Origin: a virus
IMG/VR virus record: IMGVR_UViG_3300025305_000077
Coordinates: 1-32,103 of that record
Direction: 5' to 3' (one strand)
Length of the DNA: 32,103 bases
Within the stretch, counting starts at the first letter, position 1. Each line of letters starts with the position of its first letter. A program made the translations under genes and the position numbers. Below, in pieces: positions 3,085-30,701 of this stretch. The notes beneath the pieces are model-generated. The model was not told the origin of the DNA. It was given only the letters and a program-made list of their open reading frames with translations, and did no database searches.

Positions 3085-3275
3085 ACGTAACTAAATTTTT
3101 AATTATTCTCGTATTCTGCACCATCTTTATTTGGGATGTTGCCGTTATGTTTTTTGCTAAAGATCTAAACGCCACAATTAGTTATGCAATATATACAATA
3201 TCTTGTGAACACCCTATAATATCCTTTGCAATTGGTGTTTTATGTGGTCATGTTTTCTGGCCCCTTAAATCGTGA
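3072..3275 (+). CDS. Small two-pass membrane protein
   Basis: The protein has 67 residues and two hydrophobic segments, about residues 7-28 and 46-63, separated by a short polar loop. It ends with GVLCGHVFWPLKS. Small phage membrane proteins with a terminal G-H-h-F-W pattern are common but of unknown function. The size and two-pass layout would also suit a holin, but there is no endolysin neighbour to support that. It begins 13 bases before the end of the preceding gene and ends eight bases before the GAPDH start at 3283, so it lies in the same polycistronic run. Function unknown. Confidence 0.6.
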   Translation: MDFLNVTKFLIILVFCTIFIWDVAVMFFAKDLNATISYAIYTISCEHPIISFAIGVLCGHVFWPLKS

Positions 3276-3282
3276 GAAATAT

Positions 3283-4230
3283 ATGATTAAAGTCGGAGTA
3301 GTTGGATATGGAACAATAGGCAAGCGTGTGGCAGACGCTGTATTGTTGCAAGATGACATGGAACTTGTTGGCATTACCGCAAACACTTATAACTATAGAA
3401 TCAAAACGGCTTACGAAAAGGGAATAAAAATATTTCCAGTAAATTCTTTGCTTAATATGGTTTGGAGTGGAATAGGGGTAGAAGGCGACTTCGATGATTT
3501 AGTTAAGCAGTGTGATGTGGTTGTAGACTGCGCACCAAAAGGCGCTGGCCAAAAAAACAAAGATCGGTACAAATATTGGGGAATCAAAGCGATCTTTCAG
3601 GGAGGAGAAAAGTCAAGCGTAGGAAAGAGCTTTGTTTCTCAATGCAACTATGACGAAGTTCTTGGTTCTGATTTTATAAGGGTGGTTAGCTGTAACACCA
3701 CCGGCCTTTGCAGAACCCTACATGCTGTAGATAAAAGGTATGGTGTTGAAAGTGTTCACGCAACAATAGTAAGAAGGGCTGCTGACCCTTGGGATATATA
3801 TCACGGCCCCATTAATGCTATTGTCCCAACCTTAGAACTTCCTTCGCATCACGGGCCTGATGTTCAGACCGTTCTTCCTCACATAGAGATATTTACCACA
3901 TCTATGACTGTTCCCACAACCGTTATGCATATGCATAGTGTTACAATAGACCTAGCAAAAGAAGCTACTTTGCGCGATGTAATAGAATTGTTTGATAATA
4001 CCGAAAGAGTTCGGATTGTAAAAAACACCGAAGGGATACGATCCACGGCAGAAATAATAGAATATGCAAAAGATTTAGGTCATTCTAGAGGAGACATGCC
4101 AGATATTTGTATCTGGGAAGAAACAGTTGGTATAGCAAAAAACAAACTGTTTTATTTGCAAGCCATTCATCAGGAAAGCAATGTTATTCCAGAAAATATA
4201 GATGCTATTAGAGCAGCTATGGGGAAATAA
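3283..4230 (+). CDS. gap: Archaeal-type (type II) glyceraldehyde-3-phosphate dehydrogenase
   Basis: The 315-residue product matches archaeal phosphorylating NAD(P)-dependent GAPDH along its whole length, not the bacterial/eukaryotic type. The Rossmann loop GVVGYGTIGKRVA is at 5-17, IFQGGEK at 104-110, and the catalytic cysteine is C137 in VVSCNTTGL (134-142). RRAADP is at 164-169, PSHHGPDVQTV at 187-197 and HQESNVIPENIDAIR at 296-310. It would oxidise glyceraldehyde 3-phosphate to 1,3-bisphosphoglycerate, or run in reverse. All hallmark residues I can recall for the family are kept. The C-terminus stops about 20-25 residues earlier than typical archaeal enzymes (about 335-345). An upstream ATG at 3226 is in frame but lies within the previous gene; 3283, eight bases after that gene's stop, gives the standard N-terminus. 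An orphan GAPDH among phage genes is probably an auxiliary metabolic gene. Confidence 0.92.
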   Translation: MIKVGVVGYGTIGKRVADAVLLQDDMELVGITANTYNYRIKTAYEKGIKIFPVNSLLNMVWSGIGVEGDFDDLVKQCDVVVDCAPKGAGQKNKDRYKYWGIKAIFQGGEKSSVGKSFVSQCNYDEVLGSDFIRVVSCNTTGLCRTLHAVDKRYGVESVHATIVRRAADPWDIYHGPINAIVPTLELPSHHGPDVQTVLPHIEIFTTSMTVPTTVMHMHSVTIDLAKEATLRDVIELFDNTERVRIVKNTEGIRSTAEIIEYAKDLGHSRGDMPDICIWEETVGIAKNKLFYLQAIHQESNVIPENIDAIRAAMGK

Positions 4231-27020: not shown

Positions 27021-28058
27021 ATGGCTAATAAAAGAACATACTGGGCAGTTGAAGCCCTTGGCGTGGCCGCAGAAGGCACCGGCGAAACAATTAGTAATGC
27101 GCAATTTGTTCCCGGCGTTCAAAGTGTAGGCATCACCACAAATTTTAACTTAGAACAAATTTTTCAACTCGGTCAGCTAGAAATCTATCAAGATCTTGAA
27201 GAAGTTCCAGATGTAGAAATTTCTGTTGAAAGGGTTCTGGATCAATTTAATTGCATGTATGGTCGCACAATGGATGTAGGTACGCCTACTGCTATTACAA
27301 TTGCAGGTGATCAAAACAATAAATGTGATATTGTTTTTAGTGTCAATAATGAAACCACAGATGATGTTGCTGGTGATAATGACCCACTCGCCGCTGTTTG
27401 GTGTTCTGGAATGTTTTGTTCTAGTGCATCGTTTACTTTTGGCGTTGATGGTAATTTCACTGAATCTACTACTTTGGTTGGTAATCATAAAAAGTGGGCG
27501 GCTGCACCCGGAGCCTCCATAGCGGGCTTGCCTACTGACGCGACGGTTATTGCTGGAGATGATCCAACAGCCGGATTGGTTTCAAAGAGACAGCATATCT
27601 GGATGACCTCAACCCCAGCACCAATCTCCGATCTTACTACGGCAGAAAAGGCTATTCAAAGTATTAATGTTAGTGTTGACTTTGGGCGTGAAGAAATTAA
27701 TGCCCTTGGCACAAGACTTCCTTATCACAGATTCGTCACCTTCCCAGTTGAAGTTTCTTGTGAAATTGAAGCTATTGTTACTGATATTACTGACATGGCT
27801 ACAGACGCTTTGCCAAATGCAAACAATACCACTGCTCAATCTATCGCGTTTAACGTCGGGGATGTTGCCGTGGGCGATATTGCATCAGGCGGTGCTTCTT
27901 CTGCTATTCACACCTTTAATTTAGGCAGTAAGAACAGAATGCAATCTGTTACATGGAACGGCATTGATACGGGTGGTGGAAACGCCAGCATAACGTATTC
28001 ATTCCGTAACTTTAATAAGCTTGATTACACCTATTCTGGTGCTGCTGGTTTGAATTAA
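27021..28058 (+). CDS. Major tail tube protein
   Basis: The protein has 345 residues. The N-terminal part (MANKRTYWAVEALGVA, then FVPGVQSVGITTNFNLEQIF, QLGQLEIYQDLEEVPDVEIS) has the polymer-forming beta layout of tail tube proteins, with the pattern G-Q-L-x-I-Y-Q-x-x-E-x-V-P-x-V-E-x-S-V seen in tube proteins that precede the chaperone pair. A larger beta insertion with Ala/Gly/Asp-rich loops follows in the middle, and SKNRMQSVTWNGIDTGGGNA near the C-terminus. It has its own promoter motif and a very good AGGAGA ribosome site, fitting high demand. It is followed by a hairpin and then the tail-chaperone-like gene, the usual order tube - chaperone - tape measure. Confidence 0.85.
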   Translation: MANKRTYWAVEALGVAAEGTGETISNAQFVPGVQSVGITTNFNLEQIFQLGQLEIYQDLEEVPDVEISVERVLDQFNCMYGRTMDVGTPTAITIAGDQNNKCDIVFSVNNETTDDVAGDNDPLAAVWCSGMFCSSASFTFGVDGNFTESTTLVGNHKKWAAAPGASIAGLPTDATVIAGDDPTAGLVSKRQHIWMTSTPAPISDLTTAEKAIQSINVSVDFGREEINALGTRLPYHRFVTFPVEVSCEIEAIVTDITDMATDALPNANNTTAQSIAFNVGDVAVGDIASGGASSAIHTFNLGSKNRMQSVTWNGIDTGGGNASITYSFRNFNKLDYTYSGAAGLN

Positions 28059-28075
28059 GAATTTTACTGATAACT

Positions 28076-28099
28076 AGGGGGCTGGGAAGCCAGCCCCCT
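28076..28099 (+). terminator. Strong GC hairpin after tail tube gene (no clear T-run)
   Basis: The stem AGGGGGCTGG / CCAGCCCCCT has 10 perfect base pairs and loop GAAG. It begins 18 bases after the tail tube stop. Only TT follows before ATG-rich sequence, so it may stabilise the 3' end of the tube mRNA or be a processing site instead of a full terminator. Confidence 0.6.
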
Positions 28100-28102
28100 T
28101 AT

Positions 28103-28236
28103 GTCAGTTCACATAGCGATAGCCACTTTTTGGGATAGGCAAGTGAATGAACTGACTTTAGATAATGGACTTAGGGAACGGGAAAACTACACTTCCCGTA
28201 TAAAGTTATGGAACTTTATGAGCGGGAATTTTTTTT
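28103..28236 (+). promoter_or_regulatory. Structured leader with competing hairpins and terminator-like stem over the start codon
   Basis: Several inverted repeats are seen. GTCAGTTCA (28103-28111) pairs with TGAACTGAC (28148-28156), enclosing CACTT (28124-28128) / AAGTG (28141-28145). ACGGGAA (28178-28184) pairs with TTCCCGT (28193-28199). The alternative is a terminator-like stem: TTCCCG (28193-28198) with CGGGAA (28223-28228) and ATAAAGTT (28200-28207) with AACTTTAT (28212-28219), loop ATGG (28208-28211), then eight T (28229-28236). The last two use the same TTCCCG arm, so they exclude each other, like an antiterminator/terminator pair. The start codon of the next gene is the loop. No Shine-Dalgarno site is visible. 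Confidence 0.7.
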
Positions 28237-29236
28237 GTCACGACTATTACTTGATAAAAAAATTGTAGAAATTGGCGATTTGGTTTTACACATACATCCA
28301 TTAACCATTGAGCAAAACTATATCGCACAAAAGGTTTTTAGGGATTCTTATGAAGAGGCTTTATTTTCTGGTGTTTTTGCCAGAAAAGAAATGCGTCAAT
28401 TGATGGTTGATCAGGGAGTTTGGTCAGAAGAAGAAGAAGGTAGGCTAACAAGAAACACTAAAAAAATAGAAGATTTAAAATTAGCTATTTATAATGATTT
28501 TTTAGTGCCAGTAAAAAGAGAAAGAATAAGATCAGAACTTAGGGAATTGGAAAAAGAACAAGGAACACTATACCAACAAAAACATGGAAATGATCACTTA
28601 GACTGCGAAGGGTTAGCAACATACGCCAGATGGAACTGGATAATTGAAAACACAACAACACACCCAGATGGAACCTCATATTTATTTGAGGAACTAGATA
28701 TAACGACGGTATTAAGATTAAACAATGAATGCGACATAGACACAATATATTTAAGAGAGATGTCTAGAACAGACCCTTGGGTTAGCATTTGGAGAAATTC
28801 AGGAAAAAACGCAGAAAAGATTTTTAGAAAACACGTTTTTGAGCTTACAAAGGATCAAGACGAAATAGTTAGCTGGACTGGTTTATATGAAAATGTAGCA
28901 GAAGCTTATGAATCCCCAAAACGTGAAGTCATAGAAGATAATGATGCTCTTGATGGGTGGTTAGTAGCACAAAGAAGAGAATCAGAAAAAGACAAAAGCA
29001 AAAAACAGCTAGAAGGATTTGAAAGCGCACACGAAAAGGCAGACGAAGTTTATCTTGTATCTAGAAGTAAAGAAGAGACCGATGCTATATACGCCCTAAA
29101 TGAGGGCGAATCCAAAATGACAGTTAAATCTAGGATGAACCAAGTAAAAGAAGCTGGCGAAGACGGAATAAAGTATGAAAAATTTACGGACGTTAAAATG
29201 AGAGTAATAAATGAAGCGAGTCAAAAATTCGGATAA
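28208..29236 (+). CDS. Tail assembly chaperone-like protein (paralog A)
   Basis: The protein has 342 residues, mostly helical and charged. It begins MELYEREFFLSRLLLDKK, and the YERxFFxSR step looks like the conserved start of a family found ahead of tape measure genes. The segment YEEALFSGVFARKEMRQLMV followed by DQGVWSEEEE (about 48-77) is clearly related to one in the gene at 29628. The rest includes LKLAIYNDFLVPVKRERIRS, a Trp-rich middle (YARWNWIIENTTTH) and a Lys/Glu-rich end. Its place between tail tube and tape measure is where tail assembly chaperones lie; such proteins bind the tape measure during tail building. The frame is closed upstream by a stop at 28172, so ATG 28208, inside a terminator-like hairpin, is the first possible start. 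No gpG/gpGT-type frameshift is apparent. Confidence 0.68.
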   Translation: MELYEREFFLSRLLLDKKIVEIGDLVLHIHPLTIEQNYIAQKVFRDSYEEALFSGVFARKEMRQLMVDQGVWSEEEEGRLTRNTKKIEDLKLAIYNDFLVPVKRERIRSELRELEKEQGTLYQQKHGNDHLDCEGLATYARWNWIIENTTTHPDGTSYLFEELDITTVLRLNNECDIDTIYLREMSRTDPWVSIWRNSGKNAEKIFRKHVFELTKDQDEIVSWTGLYENVAEAYESPKREVIEDNDALDGWLVAQRRESEKDKSKKQLEGFESAHEKADEVYLVSRSKEETDAIYALNEGESKMTVKSRMNQVKEAGEDGIKYEKFTDVKMRVINEASQKFG

Positions 29237-29248
29237 TGGGAGGGCATA

Positions 29249-29641
29249 ATGGATGAATCATATGCTGAATTAGTAAGAAAGTCGGATCAATATAAAACCG
29301 ATAGGTCTAGCAAATACAAGGAGGTATCAAAAGAAAGGCTTCTAAAGATATCAAAGAAAAAGATACAGACAACCATGATTGGTGCATTAAGCACTGTAGA
29401 AAAATATCTTGGTTTTTTGTGGGGGCATGAAAGTTCAGAAGAATTGACTCCTGAGCAAGAACACCTTAAACAGATATATGAAGAAGTGAGATCGGAAATA
29501 CTTGACAGGGGAAATAATCAGGCCAGAAACTTAGAGGCAGAATTTGCCAGCTATGATATTAACTGGCTACGATATCAGATTACTTTACCTGTTAAGCCTA
29601 CTACATCAATGGAAAAAGGAGAAGAAGATGGCGAAGAATAA
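29249..29641 (+). CDS. Conserved small phage protein, tail module
   Basis: The protein has 130 residues and looks helical. A basic N-terminal third (SSKYKEVSKERLLKISKKKI, about residues 20-39) is followed by TTMIGALSTVEKYLGFLWGH (41-60), an acidic section with LTPEQEHLKQIYEEVRSEIL, and EFASYDINWLRYQITLPV near the end, then an acidic tail. I know proteins with the KIQTTMIGAL...FLWG and IRSEILDxGN patterns from several unrelated phages, but not their function. It is placed between two related chaperone-like genes, and the next gene begins 14 bases before its end. GGGAGGG is a strong ribosome site. A DNA or RNA contact by the basic end is possible, but there is no direct evidence. Confidence 0.72.
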   Translation: MDESYAELVRKSDQYKTDRSSKYKEVSKERLLKISKKKIQTTMIGALSTVEKYLGFLWGHESSEELTPEQEHLKQIYEEVRSEILDRGNNQARNLEAEFASYDINWLRYQITLPVKPTTSMEKGEEDGEE

Positions 29642-30701
29642 GAAAAACCGGATTAAAATTGAGTCTGAAGACTTAGACGGTAAGAAGAAAATTGTCTACA
29701 TAAAGATTCCAGACACTAGAATAAATAAAGAAGCTCAACTGGCTTATAACCAAGCCTTTAGAGACGCTTTACAATCTGGGGCGGTTTTAAGACAAAAGCT
29801 TAGTAACGTCCTAGAAGAGCAAGGTGTTTGGGACGATGAAAAAGAAAAGCAATACAAGGATGTAATGAATTCAATTAGCGATGGAGAGAAAGAATTGAAA
29901 CAGGGTGGTATTACTCTTTCTGAAGCTAGAGAAACAGCCCTTGGCATGAGAAGAAAGCGTGGAGAATTTCGGAACCTAATCTCAGAGCGTAGCTCAATGG
30001 ATGGCAATACCGCAGAGGGGCAAGCAGATAATGAAAGATTTTCTTTTTTAGTCTATCGCTGTTTACTTCAGGATAACGGGTCGCCGTTGTTTGCTACTAA
30101 AGAAGAATATGAAGAAAATGCTAATGAGCCATACGTGGTTGATGCGGCTGGAGAACTGGCCCAAAAGCTTTATGGCCTAGACCCAGACTATGAAAGTAAT
30201 CTTCCAGAAAGCAAATTCCTAACAGATTACAAGCTAGCCGATAAGAAACTGCGCCTTATTAATAAAGATGGTCATTTGATTGATATTGACCAAGAGGGCG
30301 TCGAAAGATTGATTGATGAGGATGGTAGATTCATTGCTTATGACGACGATGGTGAAAGCTACTACATTAGCAGATCAGGCGATAAAATTGATAAAGAGGG
30401 AGATGTTATTGGTGAAGATTTTTCTCCTTTTCTAGATGATAATGGCGAACCGATTCCAGTACCGGGAAAAAAAGAAGCCAAAGTTGAAGCCTCTGACGAT
30501 ACTGAAGAAACAGAAGAGTCTGAAGATTCTGAAGAAACGGAAGAGCCTGAAGCTTCTGAAGAAACAGAAGAAGACGAACTGGCTGAAATGGTAGGAGATT
30601 TAGGCGAAGGCGAACCGATGCCGGGAACCCCAAAGGAGCCTGAAGAAGCCCCCGCCAAAAAAAGAGGACGACCAAAGAAAACACAGGCAACAACCGAATA
30701 G
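29628..30701 (+). CDS. Tail assembly chaperone-like protein (paralog B) with DG repeats and AT-hook tail
   Basis: The protein has 357 residues from ATG 29628, preceded by AAGGAG; the frame is open from 29544 but that part overlaps the previous gene. Residues about 44-73 (ALQSGAVLRQKLSNVLEEQG and VWDDE) match paralog A (28208). Residues 212-277 hold a row of Asp-Gly units: NKDGHLIDIDQEG, DEDGRFIAYDDDG, KIDKEGDVIG and LDDNGEPI. After residue 285 comes a Glu/Thr/Ser/Asp-rich acidic tail, and then basic KKRGRPKK (344-351), an AT-hook-type RGRP core. The first half is probably the folded chaperone-like part. It comes directly before the tape measure gene and is separated from it by a terminator. 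Confidence 0.68.
   Translation: MAKNKKNRIKIESEDLDGKKKIVYIKIPDTRINKEAQLAYNQAFRDALQSGAVLRQKLSNVLEEQGVWDDEKEKQYKDVMNSISDGEKELKQGGITLSEARETALGMRRKRGEFRNLISERSSMDGNTAEGQADNERFSFLVYRCLLQDNGSPLFATKEEYEENANEPYVVDAAGELAQKLYGLDPDYESNLPESKFLTDYKLADKKLRLINKDGHLIDIDQEGVERLIDEDGRFIAYDDDGESYYISRSGDKIDKEGDVIGEDFSPFLDDNGEPIPVPGKKEAKVEASDDTEETEESEDSEETEEPEASEETEEDELAEMVGDLGEGEPMPGTPKEPEEAPAKKRGRPKKTQATTE

Follow-up and report, generated by a model that had tools for sequence, protein, structure and literature searches.

A conserved hairpin enclosing the start codon of a gene that follows the tail-tube gene suggests a cis-acting RNA lock in a group of uncultured phages

We analyzed a 32-kb phage record from IMG/VR, the whole of which (32,103 nucleotides) is termed the window in the following, and all results presented here are sequence-based. 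The junction between two genes of this record comprises the following features:

27021–28058, + strand: major tail tube protein gene (AlphaFold model compared with phage major tail proteins; PHROG 985)
28076–28099, + strand: T1, terminator-like GC-rich hairpin of 10 perfect base pairs with a weak U-tract, located behind the tube gene and at the same place in near relatives
28103–28156, + strand: E1, consisting of a P1 stem, a GAUA/RA internal loop, P2 and an apical GGA, defined by a covariance model
28173–28177, + strand: Shine-Dalgarno-like (SD) AGGGA, read from the sequence; AAGGA at the same place in L024 and L032
28178–28199, + strand: hairpin A, ACGGGAA (28178–28184) / TTCCCGT (28193–28199), competing with the outer arm of hairpin B
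28193–28228, + strand: hairpin B (E2), TTCCCG+ATAAAGTT / AACTTTAT+CGGGAA, whose loop holds the start codon; conserved in 41 leaders
28208–29236, + strand: hairpin-bearing gene, 342 aa, all-helical, its start backed by L025–L028
28229–28236, + strand: T8 run abutting hairpin B, forming the codons Phe-Phe-Leu

Judged by its predicted fold, the gene preceding the hairpin is the tail tube gene, as its AlphaFold model matched 8xan_A (E 4.8e-13) as well as the tubes of T5, DT57C and P74-26, and in 13 relatives it is assigned to PHROG 985 ('virion structural protein'). High expression of this gene is expected. The 342-aa gene has a conserved position between the tail tube gene and a gene for a 130-aa protein. 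Searches of Pfam, PHROGs and PDB sequences together with fold comparison gave no convincing name for its product, and its designation as tail chaperone-like in a preceding sequence-only reading was not borne out, the predicted fold matching nothing. Homologues in annotated phages were found neither for the 342-aa gene nor for the tube gene, the 130-aa neighbour or the upstream gene. The 130-aa protein gene (29249–29641) shows 50–90% identity across relatives, yet has no match in annotated phages, and is a good marker gene for this phage group.

We placed the start codon of the 342-aa gene at 28208, because four relatives (L025–L028) carry an ordinary SD 6–9 nt ahead of the same ATG. An upstream in-frame start, considered on account of L024, where the frame is open from an ATG before the SD, was rejected: in the window this frame is broken by one extra A, and L025–L028, whose start corresponds to 28208 and is preceded by a normal SD, also speak against it.

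Hairpin B encloses this start codon. Its left side is formed by TTCCCG (28193–28198) and the eight nucleotides at 28200–28207, its loop ATGG (28208–28211) holds the start codon, and its right side comprises the complementary segment at 28212–28219, a GAG spacer (28220–28222) and CGGGAA (28223–28228). Direct reading of the sequence bore out the previously given positions of both stems and the frame ELYEREFFL, which is encoded by the 3′ arm and the T-run, so that structure and coding sequence are indeed overlaid. The description of a terminator-like stem around the start codon likewise held, with a predicted folding energy of −14.9 kcal/mol and the T8 flush with the stem; for stem A the prediction was −9.0 kcal/mol. 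RNA folding had been suggested as a check; for the 206-nt leader it gave z = −4.9, more stable than all 200 shuffles, and the segment 28170–28245 alone gave z = −3.0 with none of 200 shuffles equally stable. Among the 24 gene starts tested in the window (−20 to +22), that at 28208 was the most structured with −15.6 kcal/mol, the next lowest value being −8.4 kcal/mol. A simple terminator scan does not list hairpin B because it requires a single unbroken, GC-richer stem; in the window, G-C pairs make up 5 of the 14 stem pairs.

The claim that no Shine-Dalgarno site is present could not be upheld. In the window AGGGA ends at 28177, separated by 30 nt from the ATG at 28208, and the corresponding distances in L024 and L032 are about 29 and 32 nt. 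The competing stem noticed earlier on the same left arm, ACGGGAA/TTCCCGT, is present as hairpin A and folds out 22 nt, leaving an SD-AUG spacing of 8 nt in the window and L024 and of 12 nt in L032. This split-SD geometry is seen in L023, L024 and L032; L024 has the same hairpin A design and L032 builds it from other bases (TCGGG/CCCGA). The two stems had been regarded as mutually exclusive, which is correct for the outer six pairs of hairpin B, whereas its inner 8-bp AU-rich stem holding the AUG is compatible with hairpin A. In folding predictions for the growing transcript, hairpin A forms at once (P 0.99) and the inner stem of B joins without conflict; full B is predicted to replace A only once 28227–28229 emerge, with the probability of A falling to 0.37 and then to 0.06. 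At equilibrium B is favoured with −14.9 over −13.7 kcal/mol for A plus the inner stem, energies so close that a bound ribosome could plausibly tip the balance.

Throughout the leaders with hairpin B the SD precedes the ATG by about 33–58 nt and lies on the far side of the left arm. It is followed in 30 of the 41 leaders by an ATG opening an ORF of 1 to 17 codons, and most of these leader ORFs enter or cross the left arm, ending just before, on, or 11 nt past the real start. An SD-led leader ORF is absent in the window, L024, L032 and eight others. Eight leaders (L040, L068, L089, L094, L102, L112, L117 and L136) contain the upstream SD and hairpin B but lack both an AUG leader ORF and a rival hairpin. 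The leader peptides differ, and the left arm is read in three frames (LP/FP, SR, TP), for which reason passage of the ribosome, not the peptide, is likely the point; the peptides showed no conserved regulatory (stalling) codons.

The relatives were collected by several routes. Direct searches yielded four relatives of the 342-aa gene with 77, 45, 43 and 44% identity, and a profile of the 130-aa neighbour led to 80 IMG/VR loci with the order tube – 342-aa gene – 130-aa gene, including L035, where the tube lies past the contig end. These loci represent 72 distinct leaders (L020 included), 32 of them with hairpin B. A pattern scan of the whole of IMG/VR, with the outermost base left free, returned 36 hits, of which 35 are located at the start of the 342-aa gene family; for one of these (L111) the contig stops after 14 codons, but the leader is identical to a known one. 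The remaining hit, L128, appears to be a chance match within an unrelated gene and was discarded. Merging the synteny and pattern-scan sets resulted in 41 distinct leaders with hairpin B, whose predicted energies range among the relatives from −13.7 to −24.5 kcal/mol.

Conservation of the pairing with compensatory changes, named in the sequence-only reading as a test of its stem, was found in these 41 leaders. The left arm matches codons 6–7 in every one of them, as UUCCCG/CGG-GAA, CUCCCG/CGG-GAG or AACCCG/CGG-GAU, the last variant having one mismatch at the second pair. The outermost pair is complementary throughout (C-G in 31, U-A in 9 and A-U in one), and CTCTCG and CTCCTG occur in the left arm as G-U intermediates. 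Sliding and shuffle controls were run to keep shared ancestry from passing as structure. For the 7-pair outer helix in a 29-row alignment, 97.8% of the cells are paired compared to 93.6% in shuffles and at most 67.6% in slid versions, and the covariation of 0.240 exceeds the 0.155 of the shuffles, with none of 500 shuffles reaching as high a value. Measures counting pairs or pair types do not exceed shuffles for the outer helix, since only two pairs vary on both sides, and the covariation of the outer helix by itself is therefore modest.

To this the synonymous codons add a further signal. As the right arm is also constrained by the protein, only the wobble positions and the left arm provide free evidence. 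The 32 leaders of the synteny set all use CGG for Arg codon 6, a triplet that accounts for 2.7% of Arg codons there, and in the four hairpin-less orthologues nearest to the window (L025–L028) the left arm and CGG are both gone, with AGA in its place. We assessed the inner stem in 25 leaders against a null of synonymous codons and shuffled upstream bases with the outer arms held fixed. The inner stem around the AUG reached p ≤ 0.03 in 22 of these leaders (mean z −2.9; exceptions L030 with p 0.067, L064 and L088), although its sequences differ between clades, and for hairpin B as a whole the mean z was −5.4. The tree shows hairpin B to be an old feature of the clade that disappeared near the branch of the window itself, or else was lost there and gained again. 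These comparisons indicate that hairpin B is conserved and not a product of chance.

The sequence comparison establishes the stem and the compensatory changes in it, as well as codon choice, SD, leader ORFs and rival stem, and from these we infer that the gene following the tail-tube gene probably has a conserved cis-acting RNA lock at its start. In its closed state, the stem would join the region just before the gene to codons 2–7 with the AUG in or next to the loop, and would keep a ribosome from easily seating on the start codon; where a U-run follows the stem, RNA polymerase may also stop. The ribosome would load at the SD upstream of the left arm. In most relatives, a ribosome translating the very short ORF would run into the left arm or across it, open the lock and finish near the real start, resulting in translational coupling, whereas in the window and two relatives the rival hairpin would capture the left arm and fold away the excess distance, so that the SD comes to within 8 nt of the AUG (12 nt for L032). 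The lock would likely serve to hold the 342-aa gene low relative to the abundant tube protein of the same operon. A point against it is that opening is not uniform, since an SD-led AUG leader ORF and hairpin A are both absent from 8 of the 41 leaders; moreover, the leader ORF could be a by-product given its unconserved peptide and three reading frames.

The start-codon lock is compatible with a second reading, in which hairpin B and the T-run form a working intrinsic terminator and act as a transcription attenuator. RNA polymerase would stop at codons 8–10 when the SD, leader and AUG are empty, and read through when a ribosome is present there or hairpin A holds the left arm. We regard this as quite possible, though somewhat short of an even chance. 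A T-run of at least five directly follows the stem in 35 of the 41 leaders, Phe codon 8 is always TTT (27/27 versus a background of 75%), stem-less orthologues other than L028 are without such a T-run, and the predicted switch from A to B coincides with transcription of the T-run. On the other hand, Phe-Phe/Leu codons are T-rich in any case, the G-C content of the stem in the window is low, and in six genomes (L060, L064, L074, L079, L081 and L122) the retained stem is followed by a T-run of only 0–4. The termination function proposed earlier is possible but is weakened as the main job of the hairpin by these six, which make start-codon control the more likely conserved job and termination optional. 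Termination is likely an extra in many members, beside the conserved control of the start codon.

The MS2 coat protein represses translation at the replicase start hairpin, and in an analogous manner a phage protein, for example the tube or the 342-aa product, might bind hairpin B and repress translation. While the overlap of the hairpin with a start codon within a virion gene cluster and the strong conservation of the CCCG/CGGG outer helix would suit such an operator, we consider it unlikely, as the sequence and length of the loop and the inner stem are very different from clade to clade, a pattern uncommon among hairpins read by a protein, and no candidate binder emerged. That the hairpin has no RNA function, the agreement of its arms deriving from shared ancestry and protein constraint or from an inverted duplication, is very improbable, for even though the right arm belongs to the coding sequence, the relatives have a common ancestry and changes of the outermost pair are few on the tree, the rarest Arg codon is kept throughout with AGA confined to leaders that have lost the left arm, three pair types occur at the wobble position, G-U intermediates exist, the inner stem is selected in differing sequences, and the pairing is far better than in slid controls.

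Bacterial and phage genes ordinarily have unstructured start codons. The present large group of uncultured phages maintains a strong hairpin precisely at this place and bends its codon choice to preserve it. If the lock operates as proposed, it would be a compact natural design for setting two adjacent genes at very different levels. Lock and attenuator might moreover be combined in one gate, where an intrinsic terminator is built around the start codon, partly in synonymous codons, and a single initiation event would open translation and at the same time license transcription of the remaining operon. In evolution, this gate would have two interchangeable openers, either the leader ORF or the rival hairpin that also makes the split SD. 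We hold this combination to be possible but rather doubtful; if true, it would be a gate of a new kind. The hairpin offers a clear test of whether a single element gates translation and transcription together, and the two interchangeable openers constitute a useful evolutionary experiment.

Individual elements of the proposed lock have counterparts in known systems. In genes 38 and 25 of phage T4, an intervening hairpin shortens the SD-AUG distance from 22 to 5 and from 27 to 11 nt, respectively (PMC3014915). Hairpin A resembles these split ribosome-binding sites (Nivinskas, Malys) in bringing a distant SD near, here from 30 to 8 nt, but its arm can instead pair with codons 6–7 and thereby close the start codon; such a rival fold does not appear in that review (PMC3014915), and there is no homology. 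The coat gene of MS2 (de Smit, Berkhout, van Duin; PMC9894550) likewise has its start codon in a hairpin whose stability sets initiation, with a yield of 20% at −9.5 and 4% at −10.3 kcal/mol at 42 °C, and the coupling of MS2 coat and replicase through upstream translation is a further parallel to the proposed lock. By its predicted energy, the present hairpin should be stable enough to limit initiation. In contrast to MS2, it belongs to a dsDNA tailed phage, is about twice as stable, leaves the SD outside, reaches as far as codon 7 and in many cases precedes a U-run.

As in bacterial leader-ORF attenuators and uORF-linked premature termination (PMC7815308), 30 of the 41 relatives have a short ORF near or across an arm of the terminator-like stem. 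Here, however, the terminator would surround the regulated start codon itself, the peptide is unconserved and free of stalling codons, and the window has no SD-led leader ORF. Mutually exclusive stems together with an upstream structured RNA, E1, are reminiscent of riboswitch expression platforms that hide the SD or AUG or form terminators; there is, however, no Rfam match, and E1 and hairpin B are independent, so that E1 is not clearly the sensor of B. In the part of the literature covered, no terminator or hairpin of this kind was described at a phage tail gene.

E1, a second conserved and strongly covarying RNA structure that the earlier reading had not mentioned, has a core of GCGAUAG ... 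RAG with an apical GGA. A covariance model built from eight sequences detected it as a single copy in the window (74.5 bits) and in 32 phage records only at the junction of the tube and 342-aa genes, barring weak chance-level hits; it is found in about 30 leaders of uncultured phages, located solely between the tail tube gene and its downstream neighbour. In a 25-sequence alignment, made by fitting to the model and containing L057 as a probable chance match, 97.9% of the cells are paired versus 86.6% after shuffling, 11 of the 14 pairs show changes on both sides, and the covariation is 0.253 versus 0.116, with none of 500 shuffles as high. E1 is truncated in L027 and degenerate in L024. Rfam gave no match at the gathering score in the window, L029, L031, L057 and L060, returning only chance-level hits with E up to 10. 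A role of E1 as sensor for hairpin B was not supported, each occurring without the other, and E1 can be regarded as a separate module since it is found with or without hairpin B. It is a further candidate RNA family, and because it adjoins the tube stop codon, one may guess that it protects or processes the tube message. Upstream of E1, hairpin T1 is likely a terminator or an mRNA end passing only part of transcription.

Two further observations were made in the window. The ORF 29544–30701 resembles the N-terminal half of the gene at 28208 (about 20–31% over 50–140 aa), on which basis the two look like paralogues. The phage genome also contains a GAPDH-like gene at 3226–4230 (Gp_dh_C, E 2.9e-25), located near a nucleotide-sugar epimerase-like gene at 1437–2441.
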